Part shown: one piece after another, positions 59,553-64,000 of the stretch | Position numbering within the stretch: position 1 is the first letter of the stretch | Layout: every line of letters starts with the position of its first letter | Assembly (NCBI GenBank): GCA_949841465.1 | Contig: CATKZW010000006.1 | Coordinates: 1-64,000 of the forward strand | Direction of reading: 5' to 3' | Source: an uncultured Oscillospiraceae bacterium | Lineage (GTDB): Bacteria; Bacillota; Clostridia; Oscillospirales; Oscillospiraceae | Length of the DNA stretch: 64,000 bases | Position numbers and translations under genes: made by a program | Notes under the pieces: generated by a model | The model's database searches: none | Told to the model about the DNA's origin: nothing | What the model saw: the letters and a program-made list of their open reading frames with translations, nothing else

Positions 59553-60542
59553 TTACGCCTTGAAGCCCGGGGTGTCCGCCTTGGCGTCCAGCAGCTGCTT
59601 GAGCTGGTCGTCCAGCTTCAGCAGGGAGATGGAGAAGCCCGCCATCTCAATGGAGGTCATATACTCGCCCACGAAGGTCTTGTACACCTTGACGCCCTTT
59701 TCCGCCAGCACATCGGCCACCCGGTTGTTGATGATGAACAGCTCCATCAGCGGGGTGGCGCCGGAGGAGTTGATCATCACCGCCACCTCGCTGCCGGTGT
59801 AGTCGATGTCCGCCAGGATCTGGGCCAGCAGCTTGTCGGTGATCTCATCGGCGGTGAGGATCTTCTCCCGGTGGGTGCCCGGCTCGCCGTGTATGCCGAT
59901 GCCGACCTCCATCTCGTCCTCGCTGAGCTCGAAGCCGGGCTTGCCCGCGGCGGGGACGGTGCAGGGCTCGATGGCCGCGCCCATGGTGCGCACGTTGTCG
60001 ATGACCTTCTGGGCCACGGCCTGGACGGCGTCCAGATCGGCGCCGGTCTCCGCCATGGCGCCGGCGATCTTGTGGACGAACACAGTGCCCGCCACACCCC
60101 GGCGGCCCACGGTGTACAGGCTGTCCTTCACGGCCACGTCGTCGTTGACCACCACCTGGGCCACCTTGATGCCCTCGTCCCGGGCCATGTCGGCGGCCAT
60201 CTCGAAGTTCATCACGTCGCCGGTGTAGTTTTTGATGACCATCAGCACGCCCGCGTCGGTGGCGATGGCCTTGATGCCCTCATAGACCTGGTCGGGGGTG
60301 GGGGAGGTGAACACCGCGCCGGCCACCGCCGCGTCCAGCATGCCCTCGCCCACATAGCCGCCGTGGGCGGGCTCGTGGCCGCTGCCGCCGCCGCTGATCA
60401 GGGCCACCTTGCCCTCCTTTTTGCTGGCGCGGACCACCACATTGCCGCAGTCCAGCTTGCGGATGTATTGGGGATAGGCCTTGACCATGCCCTGGATCAT
60501 CTGATCCTCTACCTTGTCGACCGCGTTGATGAACTTCTTCAT
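59553..60542 (-). CDS. dhaK: Dihydroxyacetone kinase substrate-binding subunit DhaK
   Basis: 329 residues, the usual size. GGGSGHEPAHGGYVGEGML (His56 region) and the covalent substrate histidine in GIGIHGEPG (His218) are intact, as is VIKNYTGDVMNFEMA. DhaK holds dihydroxyacetone as a hemiaminal for phosphorylation to DHAP. First gene of the minus-strand operon, divergent from glpP. AAAAGGAG precedes the ATG. Confidence 0.95.
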   Translation of the reverse strand: MKKFINAVDKVEDQMIQGMVKAYPQYIRKLDCGNVVVRASKKEGKVALISGGGSGHEPAHGGYVGEGMLDAAVAGAVFTSPTPDQVYEGIKAIATDAGVLMVIKNYTGDVMNFEMAADMARDEGIKVAQVVVNDDVAVKDSLYTVGRRGVAGTVFVHKIAGAMAETGADLDAVQAVAQKVIDNVRTMGAAIEPCTVPAAGKPGFELSEDEMEVGIGIHGEPGTHREKILTADEITDKLLAQILADIDYTGSEVAVMINSSGATPLMELFIINNRVADVLAEKGVKVYKTFVGEYMTSIEMAGFSISLLKLDDQLKQLLDAKADTPGFKA

Positions 60543-60641: not shown

Positions 60642-60698
60642 TCCATGTTGGTACAACGCCCGGGAAGCCGGGCCTTAAAAACGCGGGAGGGGATCATT

Positions 60699-61268
60699 TT
60701 GGACCAACGCTTTTACGACGCGGTGCTGGCCTCGCCGGTGATCGCCGCGGTGAAGGACATGGAGCAACTGGAGGAATGCCTGAGCCTGGACAACATCCAG
60801 GTGGTGTTCCTGCTGTTCGGTGATTTGTGCACCATCGCGGACATCGTGGCCAGGGCCAAGGACAAGGGGAAGATCGTCATGATCCACACCGACCTGGTCA
60901 GCGGTCTGTCCTCCAGCAAGGAGATCGCCGTGGACTTCCTCCGGGCCAGCACCCGGGCGGACGGCATCATCTCCACCAAGCCCAGCCTCATCCGCCGGGC
61001 CCGGGAGCTGAGGATGTTCACCGTCCTGCGGCTGTTCGTCATCGACTCCATGGCGCTGGCGGGCATTGACAAGCTGGAGGCGGTGCGCCCGGACTTCATC
61101 GAGGTGCTCCCCGGGGTCATGCCCAAGACCATCCGCAGGATCACCCAGACCACCCGCATCCCCCTGCTGGCCGGGGGGCTCATTCAGGACAAGGAGGACG
61201 TGATGGCCGCCCTGTCCGCCGGGGCCATGGCGGTGTCCGCCACCAGTCCGGAGGTTTGGCGGATGTGA
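60699..61268 (+). CDS. glpP: GlpP-type glycerol-3-phosphate responsive antiterminator
   Basis: 189 residues from TTG 60699, with GGGAGGGG at a good distance; the upstream ATG 60645 falls on the probable transcription start. TIM-barrel GlpP family: VVFLLFGDLCTIADIVARAK (part), VMIHTDLVSGLSSSKEIAVD (part), ISTKPSLIRRARELRMFTVL (part), DFIEVLPGVMPKTIRRI and LLAGGLIQDKEDVMAALSAG (part). GlpP binds glycerol-3-phosphate and then stops termination in leaders of glycerol genes. Divergent to dhaKLM, tying this region to glycerol/DHA use. Confidence 0.92.
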   Translation: MDQRFYDAVLASPVIAAVKDMEQLEECLSLDNIQVVFLLFGDLCTIADIVARAKDKGKIVMIHTDLVSGLSSSKEIAVDFLRASTRADGIISTKPSLIRRARELRMFTVLRLFVIDSMALAGIDKLEAVRPDFIEVLPGVMPKTIRRITQTTRIPLLAGGLIQDKEDVMAALSAGAMAVSATSPEVWRM

Positions 61269-61388: not shown

Positions 61389-61601
61389 TTACTTGCCCTC
61401 GCAGTTCATGTCGTCCAGGCTGCAGCTGGTGTCCTCGTCCTTGGTGACGGCGTTCATGTCGGTGATGGAGAAGGACTGCTCCTCCTGGCCCTCCAGACAG
61501 TTCATGTCGTTCAGGGCGCAGGTGCGGTCGTCGTCGGAGCTGATGCCGTTCATGTTGGTGATGCCAAGACCGCTTTTAATCTTGCTCTTCTTGTCTTCCA
61601 T
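61389..61601 (-). CDS. 70-residue acidic microprotein with four exact 16-residue repeats
   Basis: The ATG at 61601 has AAGGAGG eight bases upstream and its own promoter (61730-61758). The word Met-Asn recurs at residues 17, 33, 49 and 65, an exact 16-residue (48-base) period. Repeats alternate: 1 and 3 read I-T-[ND]-M-N-[GA]-[IV], 2 and 4 read C-[AS]-L-[ND]-D-M-N-C. So there are two C-x6-C units (Cys28/35, Cys60/67) separated by acidic spacers rich in Asp/Glu, after a basic leader MEDKKSKIKSG. No family recognised and no modifying enzyme is adjacent. Could be a repeated-core peptide precursor, a metal or thiol-binding peptide, or a structural repeat. Divergent from ahpC. Confidence 0.7.
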   Translation of the reverse strand: MEDKKSKIKSGLGITNMNGISSDDDRTCALNDMNCLEGQEEQSFSITDMNAVTKDEDTSCSLDDMNCEGK

Positions 61602-61729: not shown

Positions 61730-61758
61730 AGTATAACCCAAATCCCCCGAGAATACAA
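61730..61758 (-). promoter_or_regulatory. Promoter of the microprotein gene
   Basis: On the minus strand TTGTAT (61753-61758), 17-base spacer, TATACT (61730-61735), about 130 bases before the start codon. The leader 61602-61729 holds no ORF or hairpin that I can support. Confidence 0.75.
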
Positions 61759-61840
61759 GGGGTGCTCTTGTGGTTTTTGACAAACTGGGTGATTTGTTGA
61801 ACCGAGCTTGGCTGAAATGGGGGCTTTTTGTGAAAAGTGC

Positions 61841-61869
61841 TTGCAAAGCAGTTTGAAATCTGCTATCTT
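61841..61869 (+). promoter_or_regulatory. Promoter of ahpC
   Basis: TTGCAA (61841-61846), 17-base spacer, TATCTT (61864-61869), 67 bases before the ahpC start. Confidence 0.7.
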
Positions 61870-61935: not shown

Positions 61936-62502
61936 ATGGCGCATATGATCGGCAGGCAGCTGGAGCCCTTCTCCGTCATGGGCTATCATGAGGGGGATTT
62001 CCGCCCCTTCACCGAGAAGGACCTGCTGGGTCACTGGTCGGTGCTGTTCTTCTACCCCGCCGACTTCACCTTTGTGTGCCCCACCGAGCTGAAGGATCTG
62101 TCGGAGCAGTACGAGGGCTTCCAGGCGGAGGGGTGCGAGATCTACTCCGTCAGCGAGGACACCCACTTCGTCCACAAGGCCTGGGCGGACGCGTCCGACA
62201 CCATCAAGGCCATCAAGTACCCTATGCTGGGCGACCCCGCGGGGGTGCTGGCCCGTCAGCTCGGCGTGCTGGTGGAGGAGGACGGGCAGGCCCTGCGGGG
62301 CACCTTCCTGTTCAACCCGGAGGGCAGGATCGTGCTGTACGAGATCCATGACATGGGCATCGGCCGCAACGCGGAGGAGCTGCTGCGCAAGCTCCAGGCG
62401 GCCAAGTTTGTCCACGAGCACGGCGACCAGGTCTGCCCCGCCCACTGGCACCCCGGTGAGGACACCCTGACCCCCAGCCTGGATCTGGTGGGGCTGCTGT
62501 AA
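61936..62502 (+). CDS. ahpC: Alkyl hydroperoxide reductase C, typical 2-Cys peroxiredoxin
   Basis: 188 residues from ATG 61936 with GGAGG nine bases upstream. Peroxidatic Cys48 in FYPADFTFVCPTEL, resolving Cys167 in GDQVCPAHWHPGE, and the conserved YPMLGDPAGVLARQLGV segment. Reduces H2O2 and organic hydroperoxides using electrons from an AhpF-like or thioredoxin system. The next gene, 15 bases on, is its probable reductant. Confidence 0.95.
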   Translation: MAHMIGRQLEPFSVMGYHEGDFRPFTEKDLLGHWSVLFFYPADFTFVCPTELKDLSEQYEGFQAEGCEIYSVSEDTHFVHKAWADASDTIKAIKYPMLGDPAGVLARQLGVLVEEDGQALRGTFLFNPEGRIVLYEIHDMGIGRNAEELLRKLQAAKFVHEHGDQVCPAHWHPGEDTLTPSLDLVGLL

Positions 62503-62517
62503 GAGGGAGGAGTCATT

Positions 62518-63183
62518 ATGCCGCTCCAACCCGAAAATTACCCCGCCGAGAGCCCGCTGATTGCCCCCGAGCTGGAGGAGCAGCTTCAGCCGCTGCTGGA
62601 CAAGCTGGCTTCCCCCGTCACCCTGGTGTGCATTCTGGGAGAGGACGAGAAGAGCGGCGAGATGGCCGCCTTCCTCAACCACATGGCGGGGCTGTCCCCC
62701 CGGCTGTCCTGTCAGTTCCTGGCCCCCGGTGAGGACCCCGCCGTGGACGGGGCGCTGGACGCCTCCCTGCTGCCCGCCACCGGCGTCTATACCCAGGCGG
62801 GGTTTGGGCGGATGGTGTTCCACGGCGTCCCCGGCGGCAAGGAGATCACCGGCTTTGCCGGGGCCCTGCTCAACGCCGGCGGAGCCGCCAAGCCTTTGGA
62901 CAAGCCCACCCTGAAGGATATTGGGAAGATCAAAAAGCCGACGGATATCCGGGTGTGCGTGTCCCTGGCCTGCCACCACTGCGCCCAGCTGGTGATGAGC
63001 GCCCAGCGGGTGGCATGGGAGAACCCCCAGGTCACCGCCCATATGATCGACGCCAACCTCTACCCTGAGCTGGTGAAGAAGTACCAGATCCAGCGGGTGC
63101 CGCTGACGGTGCTTAACGGGGACAAGACCGTCCCCGGCGGCAAGACCATGGCGGAGCTCACCACCCTGCTGGCCAAGCTCTGA
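62518..63183 (+). CDS. Stand-alone AhpF N-terminal-like dithiol protein
   Basis: 221 residues resembling only the N-terminal domain of AhpF: two tandem thioredoxin folds, the second with active site C152-H-H-C155 in VSLACHHCAQLVM and cis-Pro in QIQRVPLTVLNGDK. The FAD/NADPH thioredoxin-reductase part of AhpF is missing and no flavoprotein gene follows, so electrons must come from a thioredoxin reductase elsewhere. Directly behind ahpC, before a terminator, so the two form one operon. Confidence 0.88.
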   Translation: MPLQPENYPAESPLIAPELEEQLQPLLDKLASPVTLVCILGEDEKSGEMAAFLNHMAGLSPRLSCQFLAPGEDPAVDGALDASLLPATGVYTQAGFGRMVFHGVPGGKEITGFAGALLNAGGAAKPLDKPTLKDIGKIKKPTDIRVCVSLACHHCAQLVMSAQRVAWENPQVTAHMIDANLYPELVKKYQIQRVPLTVLNGDKTVPGGKTMAELTTLLAKL

Positions 63184-63481: not shown

Positions 63482-63581
63482 AATATCAGGGAGGGTGGGA
63501 CGTGCATTGGAACAAGACGGACCAGTCCGGCAGTCCCAGCCGGGCTTTGCCGCGGCCCAGATGAGGAGGAATATCATTATA

Positions 63582-64000
63582 ATGTGCCGTAACACAAAGC
63601 AGAAGATCGCCCAGGCGCTGCGTCAGCTGATGTGTGAGCGCCCCTTGAGCAAGATCACCGTGCAGGACCTGATGGAGCGTGCCCAGATGAAGCGGCAGAG
63701 CTTCTACTACCACTTTCAGGACATCTACGACGTGCTGGGGTGGATCTGCGAGGGGCAGCTGGGCGCTCCCCTCCGGGAGGAGCCGGAGCTGGACTTCGAG
63801 GAGTGGTGCCTGCGGCTGATCGACCTGATGGAGAAGGACCGGGCCTTCTACCGCCGGGTGTTCCTGGCGGGAAACCCGGAGGTGGTGCGGGACTTCTGCG
63901 AGGGGCTGGTGCGGCCCCGGATGGGCAGGCTGCTGTTTCAGGAGGACGACCTGTGCCGGCTGTCCCGGGAGCAGACCTTCGTGACCAACTTCTGCACCAG
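63582..64000 (+). CDS. TetR-family regulator, DhaS-like (3' end outside window)
   Basis: 139 codons visible from ATG 63582 (GAGGAGGA upstream), cut by the window end. N-terminal helix-turn-helix TKQKIAQALRQLMCERPLSK and ITVQDLMERAQMKRQSFYYHF, with the motif FYYHFQDIYDVLGWI seen in the 'dihydroxyacetone kinase regulator' (DhaS-like) subgroup with TetR_C_8-type C-terminus. dhaKLM lie 3-5 kb upstream, which makes a link to DHA metabolism possible but not shown. The 100-base gap behind the RNA holds a possible short GTG ORF but nothing firm. Confidence 0.85.
   Translation, partial: MCRNTKQKIAQALRQLMCERPLSKITVQDLMERAQMKRQSFYYHFQDIYDVLGWICEGQLGAPLREEPELDFEEWCLRLIDLMEKDRAFYRRVFLAGNPEVVRDFCEGLVRPRMGRLLFQEDDLCRLSREQTFVTNFCT

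Follow-up and report, generated by a model that had tools for sequence, protein, structure and literature searches.

A rare, repetitive microprotein with paired cysteines, linked to AhpC and a stand-alone thioredoxin-fold protein, suggests a redox partnership in gut Clostridia

The first 64,000 nucleotides of contig CATKZW010000006.1 of an uncultured Oscillospiraceae bacterium (assembly GCA_949841465.1; this whole stretch is called the window below) contain a gene for a 70-residue microprotein, built of tandem 16-residue units, some of which are bracketed by two Cys residues. Its sequence, its relatives and its neighbours suggest that, in some gut Clostridia, this microprotein is a redox partner of a thioredoxin-like protein, here termed TrxL, and of a usually present peroxide-removing enzyme, the peroxiredoxin AhpC. 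The cysteines of the family come strictly in pairs, the gene is linked to those of TrxL and AhpC, and the TrxL of microprotein genomes bears a distinctive active site.

A rare family of 16-residue repeats with paired cysteines

The gene and its parts are as follows:
61389 to 61601, minus strand: microprotein coding sequence, 70 residues and stop (open reading frame translation, homologues, substitution ratio)
61521 to 61568, minus strand: unit R1, residues 12-27, LGITNMNGISSDDDRT, Cys-free
61473 to 61520, minus strand: unit R2, residues 28-43, CALNDMNCLEGQEEQS, C28-x6-C35
61425 to 61472, minus strand: unit R3, residues 44-59, FSITDMNAVTKDEDTS, Cys-free in the window protein
61392 to 61424, minus strand: unit R4, residues 60-70, CSLDDMNCEGK, C60-x6-C67
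61610 to 61617, minus strand: ribosome-binding site GAAGGAGG, aligned in 10 genus sequences
61730 to 61758, minus strand: promoter-like TTGTAT-17-TATACT (-35 at 61753-61758, -10 at 61730-61735), aligned in 10 genus sequences

An earlier note on this DNA, which named no strand, had described an undescribed repetitive microprotein, acidic and of four 16-residue units, with a promoter and a ribosome-binding site of its own; all of this is confirmed here, the coding frame being on the minus strand. The units of the window protein are spaced by 16/16/16 residues, R2 and R4 having the form C-x6-C and R1 and R3 no Cys. Compared with itself at a shift of 16 residues, the protein matches at 14 positions, and at a shift of 32 at 13; none of 20,000 shuffles of its sequence reaches the sum (27), and nine of 20,000 reach 14 matches at any shift between 5 and 40. 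Asp and Glu together number 16 versus seven Lys and Arg. Elements resembling the promoter were also recognised by eye at the loci L027, L028, L029, L031 and L071. AlphaFold2 gave neither a fold nor secondary structure (mean predicted local distance difference test score 51, from an alignment of 16 rows), as expected of a disordered chain, and so shallow an alignment could also produce such a low score; on this prediction the chain is probably disordered, and with no apparent signal peptide we infer that it is cytosolic.

A pattern-based scan of genome_contigs yielded 19 loci with 49-100% identity over the matched stretch, representing 17 genomes, as L031 and L032 come from separate contigs of a single genome, and L030 and L034, which lie at contig ends, are probably opposite ends of the same gene. 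Strong matches were found in 11 of 99 relatives, all within the genus of the window (42 genomes, its own included), and the remaining matches of that search had E values of 0.039 or weaker; the window's own genome contains a single copy. A profile search detected the microprotein in two of 400 genomes of the taxonomic family (the own genome and G262, which has two tandem copies), in one of 391 of the class and one of 398 of the phylum (the own genome both times), and in three of 195 relatives of G860, G860 included. In all, 19 genomes carry the gene. The family is real, and it is rare and patchy in the genomes sampled. It is also undescribed; its best Pfam match, DUF3079, scores 12.8 bits versus a cut-off of 27, NCBIfam gave no match (PHROGs and PADLOC were not searched), and no description appeared among the papers listed by literature searches, which mostly excluded subscription papers. 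A phage or plasmid origin was considered and rejected, no relative being confirmed in viral_contigs or found in plasmids (INPHARED phage records were not searched).

Ten genus sequences (45 pairs) differ by a mean of 0.062 nonsynonymous (dN) and 0.266 synonymous (dS) substitutions, with a median ratio of 0.21. For the nine ungapped ones, the median dN/dS is 0.20 in the microprotein frame versus 0.47-3.6 in the other five. Variable columns number 16, 10 and 30 at the first, second and third codon positions (of 70 each). A spurious reading frame in GC-rich DNA, or a real gene on the opposite strand, was rejected on the lowest dN/dS in this frame and the third-position excess. The earlier note had asked whether homologues keep the frame, the period and a coding constraint; they keep the first two, and the frame is constrained, at a dN/dS of about 0.2.

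For the cysteines we counted 79 units in 20 proteins (one truncated), after removing one spurious overlapping match in the second copy at L033: 41 units contain both Cys, 38 neither and none a single one, and no Cys lies outside the unit brackets. Individual proteins hold two to six Cys, and those of R2 are present in every protein of the family. R3 is Cys-free in most members, but at L035, L036 and L071 Cys occur in R2, R3 and R4. Two tandem microprotein genes are found in RUG14158 (L033:5229-5733), the second with Cys in R2 only, both R4 Cys being lost. An alternation of Cys-bracketed and Cys-free units, as first noticed in the window protein, is correct there but is not a rule of the family. 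Since at least two such changes affected both Cys at once, the two Cys of one unit seem to act as a pair.

Invariant in an alignment of 18 sequences are N18, N34, N50, N66, M33, M49, M65, D32, D48, L30, C28 and C35. The Met-Asn landmark, previously called strict, therefore stands for its four Asn but not for the Met of R1, which is V or L in five of the 20 proteins (L027, L031, L035, L036, L071). A Met in each unit, together with the Cys pairs and a gene next to AhpC, would also fit a sacrificial antioxidant, whose Met and Cys consume peroxide; however, a sequence with invariant Asn, Asp and Leu and a dN/dS of 0.2 is far too specific for a sink, and the R1 Met is replaceable, which makes this explanation very improbable.

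Association with TrxL and AhpC

The neighbouring genes are:
59553 to 60542, minus strand: dihydroxyacetone kinase subunit DhaK (Pfam Dak1, 454.9 bits)
60645 to 61268, plus strand: glycerol-3-phosphate responsive antiterminator of GlpP type (Pfam PF04309, 213.7 bits)
61936 to 62502, plus strand: AhpC-type peroxiredoxin, 188 residues, divergent partner gene (Pfam AhpC-TSA; TIGR03137, 272.6 bits versus a curated cut-off of 272)
62518 to 63183, plus strand: TrxL, stand-alone double-thioredoxin-fold protein, 221 residues, active site CHHC (relatives of the AhpF N-terminal domain in the PDB; TIGR03143 at positions 346-553 of 555 only, 149.5 bits versus a cut-off of 687.65)

In 14 of the 19 carriers (the window, L018-L025, L030, L027, L028, L029 and L031/L032) the microprotein gene is divergent from the AhpC-TrxL pair and lies inside a glycerol/dihydroxyacetone cluster. 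At L035 (the cultured strain 1XD21-72) and L036 this cluster is absent and the gene lies downstream of AhpC-TrxL on the same strand. At L071 (G866) the gene and TrxL diverge, with the glycerol cluster coming next, and at L026 (G017) the contig ends, AhpC and TrxL being on a different contig. The most constant neighbour is TrxL, with AhpC usually adjacent; the linkage to both outlasts the changed gene orientation of L035 and L036, and that to TrxL the absence of AhpC at L071. Both the divergence from peroxide-defence genes on the opposite strand and the link to peroxide defence, as claimed in the earlier note, thus hold, the link even where the orientation is altered. In two loci only, L035 and L036, genes for a LytTR response regulator and a GHKL kinase were seen, at L035 directly downstream of the microprotein and on the same strand (L035:6286-8746). 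The AhpC gene of the microprotein locus L067 (G855:C128:5319-5882) has one in-frame TAG, which may reflect decay, an error or recoding.

The tandem units, the conserved Cys and the LytTR and GHKL genes downstream at L035 could belong to a precursor with tandem cores, as had been suggested, either of a ribosomally synthesised and post-translationally modified peptide (RiPP) or of a signal peptide. However, half of the units are without Cys, the regulator pair is restricted to the two loci, and no modifying enzyme, peptidase or exporter was recognised at the loci read, where neighbours were inspected by eye, compared with window proteins by tblastn and, for seven proteins, searched against Pfam; some neighbours have no annotation, and a distant maturase may exist. 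A precursor of either kind finds no support here and has very little probability.

At a match threshold of 1e-25, TrxL was detected in 17 of 199 relatives of the window genome, in six within AhpF-type frames (557-594 residues) and in 11 as a stand-alone protein, and these are the same 11 genomes that carry the microprotein among the 99 searched. The same 11, of the 42 genus genomes, have an AhpC of at least 85% identity; in G003 and G035, which lack the microprotein, AhpC is 63% identical and accompanied by a fused AhpF. G855 encodes, away from its microprotein locus, another AhpC that is likewise accompanied by a fused AhpF, with no microprotein gene there. Among 195 relatives of G866, TrxL matches occur in 26, of which 21 are in AhpF-type frames (544-587); stand-alone TrxL with the microprotein is found in G866, G860 and G861, and G1024 has a split AhpF beside its reductase. 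Three of the four TrxL proteins of this set without a fused or adjacent reductase come with the microprotein. The microprotein profile found nothing in the flanks of any of the 29 TrxL matches without the microprotein (best E 3.4); for 27 of them the genome is taken as searched for the microprotein, for G1068 and G1073 the flanks only.

The active site follows the same division. In all 18 microprotein genomes with a TrxL read (in the nineteenth, RUG14158, none was read) it is C-x-H-C, namely CHHC in the 11 genus genomes and in G860, G861 and G866, CQHC at L027, L028 and L029, and CAHC at L031. In the 29 TrxL without the microprotein C-x-H-C occurs once (CPHC, G1024), the others having CTMC (22), CHLC (two) or CNMC, CTLC, CAFC and CSIC (one each). 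A His at the second middle position is also present in DsbA and PDI, and by this resemblance the site would favour oxidation. Differences in CXXC motifs may discriminate thioredoxin targets, as is proposed in a study on Clostridia (PMC10880999).

A docking or scaffold peptide, whose D-M-N landmark would offer several binding sites to AhpC rings or TrxL while its Cys pairs did no more than staple loops, would agree with the landmark being kept in Cys-free units, its Asn and the Met of R2 to R4 being invariant. We regard this as rather unlikely, as the R2 Cys in every protein and the co-varying TrxL active site argue for chemistry and not for stapling alone.

A search with the reductase portion of a fused AhpF yielded matches of at least 200 bits in 10 of the 19 microprotein genomes, the best of G855 being its second, fused AhpF and that of G856 containing one in-frame stop; seven genomes had partial matches only (about 160-175 of 317 residues), and G857 and G859 none at 1e-20. 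No reductase match adjoins AhpC-TrxL in the 19 genomes, the nearest seen being about 8 kilobases from TrxL in G866. With no reductase beside the pair and uneven TrxB-like matches elsewhere, electrons could run either way.

A possible redox role and its analogues

Of the three functions offered in the earlier note, a redox-active peptide fits best with the paired Cys and the C-x-H-C TrxL, and from the sequences a redox role of the family is plausible. Tentatively, and with a probability that falls a little short of even, we propose that the microprotein is a small, disordered thiol-disulfide partner of TrxL and AhpC in the manner of CP12. Each C-x6-C unit would most likely be a pair switching between dithiol and disulfide, and the C-x-H-C site of TrxL, as the main partner, would exchange disulfides with it; AhpC would deliver oxidising equivalents once peroxide appears, or take electrons via TrxL. 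Because the Cys-free units retain the same landmark, the repeat probably is a multivalent docking motif, within which the Cys pair would serve as the redox switch.

CP12 may be the closest working analogue. CP12, which serves as a redox switch in photosynthetic organisms, is a charged, (conditionally) disordered protein of about 80 residues, the two Cys pairs of which form intramolecular disulfides reduced by thioredoxin (PMC3906501; PMC9406205); the microprotein likewise is small, charged and predicted to be disordered, with two Cys pairs that may form disulfides. It is nevertheless no CP12, since the core motif AWD_VEE (PMC3906501) is absent, by reading, from the window protein and its relatives. 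Moreover, the microprotein consists of four tandem 16-residue units and is found in anaerobic Clostridia beside AhpC and TrxL, whereas CP12 acts with GAPDH and PRK. The pair next to it resembles AhpC-AhpF, as AhpC reaches its family cut-off and TrxL matches the double-thioredoxin-fold part of AhpF (PMC12288474); however, TrxL is not fused to a flavin reductase domain, a feature of AhpF, has C-x-H-C where CTMC prevails, and is accompanied by the microprotein. A looser analogy may be drawn to the twin-Cys substrates of Mia40/CHCHD4. These are mitochondrial CX9C or CX3C helical hairpins, and with no sequence relation expected the likeness would lie in small size and paired Cys. Their paired Cys are oxidised by a dedicated oxidoreductase (PMC12114033).

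A metal-binding peptide, either metallothionein-like or a chaperone, would bind or buffer metal through its Cys pairs, aided by Asp, Asn or Met; the microprotein is acidic, has paired Cys with a conserved Met beside them, and the C-x-H-C of TrxL could hold metal too. Metallothioneins are small, repetitive, Cys-containing proteins with clustered C-x-C or C-x2-C metal-binding motifs. The microprotein has neither motif, only C-x6-C units with two to six Cys in all, so the metallothionein-like character suggested earlier fails by motif, and no metal transporter or metal regulator was recognised among the neighbours; metal binding thus appears decidedly unlikely.

Several observations weigh against the partnership with TrxL and AhpC. 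No AhpC is present at the microprotein locus of G866 (L071; the rest of the genome was not searched), and the two copies of RUG14158 (L033) have neither TrxL nor AhpC nearby, AhpC not being found in this genome, which is about 70% complete and was not searched throughout for TrxL. Conversely, G882 (L119:6425-7682) has a stand-alone TrxL (CAFC) adjoining AhpC and no microprotein. The 11 carriers within the genus may form a single clade and so represent few independent events, adjacency alone could be the source of the co-occurrence, and the low-confidence AlphaFold2 model is uninformative on binding.

A shared palindrome and the use of glycerol

Three further features concern regulation:
61776 to 61801, no strand: imperfect palindrome with an 8-base centre, operator-like, between the divergent promoters; also found upstream of glpK
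61841 to 61869, plus strand: AhpC promoter-like TTGCAA-17-TATCTT, its CTTGCAA element mostly kept in the genus
63495 to 63998, plus strand: TetR/DhaS-like regulator, incomplete because the window ends within it (TIGR02366, 81.7 bits for the truncated protein versus a cut-off of 129)

A matrix made from ten microprotein-side sites was scanned over 15 glycerol-cluster loci, which are related and not independent. In all 15 a site lies at most 250 base pairs upstream of glpK, ranking first or second in 14 and third in one, and in 13 it scores above the best of 20 shuffles; the counterpart of the window palindrome upstream of glpK is at L072:6213-6238. When the arm columns were permuted, one of 200 such motifs equalled the real motif by rank and none by mean score (16.7 for the real, 10.0 for the best permuted one). 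The microprotein-side sites of L028 (8.5) and L071 (12.3) are low, below shuffles, and no site above shuffles was found at L035 and L036, which are without the glycerol cluster, nor at L033 and in G882. These data suggest common control of the microprotein/AhpC gap and of glpK, and the TetR/DhaS-like protein is a candidate reader of the palindrome, which we take to be similar to what presumably is the DhaS operator of Lactococcus lactis (GGACACAT-N6-ATTTGTCC). An operator common with glpK would couple the thiol state to glycerol/dihydroxyacetone use.

In a bolder version, which we consider unlikely, peroxide would oxidise AhpC, AhpC would oxidise a C-x-H-C TrxL freed from the AhpF reductase, and TrxL would introduce disulfides into the microprotein, a disordered chain with several C-x6-C units, which would then dock to and switch enzymes of glycerol/dihydroxyacetone catabolism; such a cytosolic disulfide relay would be an independent, strict-anaerobe counterpart of CP12 and of the Mia40 substrates.

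If the proposed partnership is true, gut anaerobes devote a peptide to sensing or passing on the oxidation of thiols at a peroxiredoxin, a task known chiefly from CP12 and from relays in eukaryotes, and peroxide handling would be tied to glycerol/dihydroxyacetone use in these bacteria. The system is small and testable, consisting of three adjacent genes with a diagnostic active-site motif and a natural variation of one, two or three Cys pairs.
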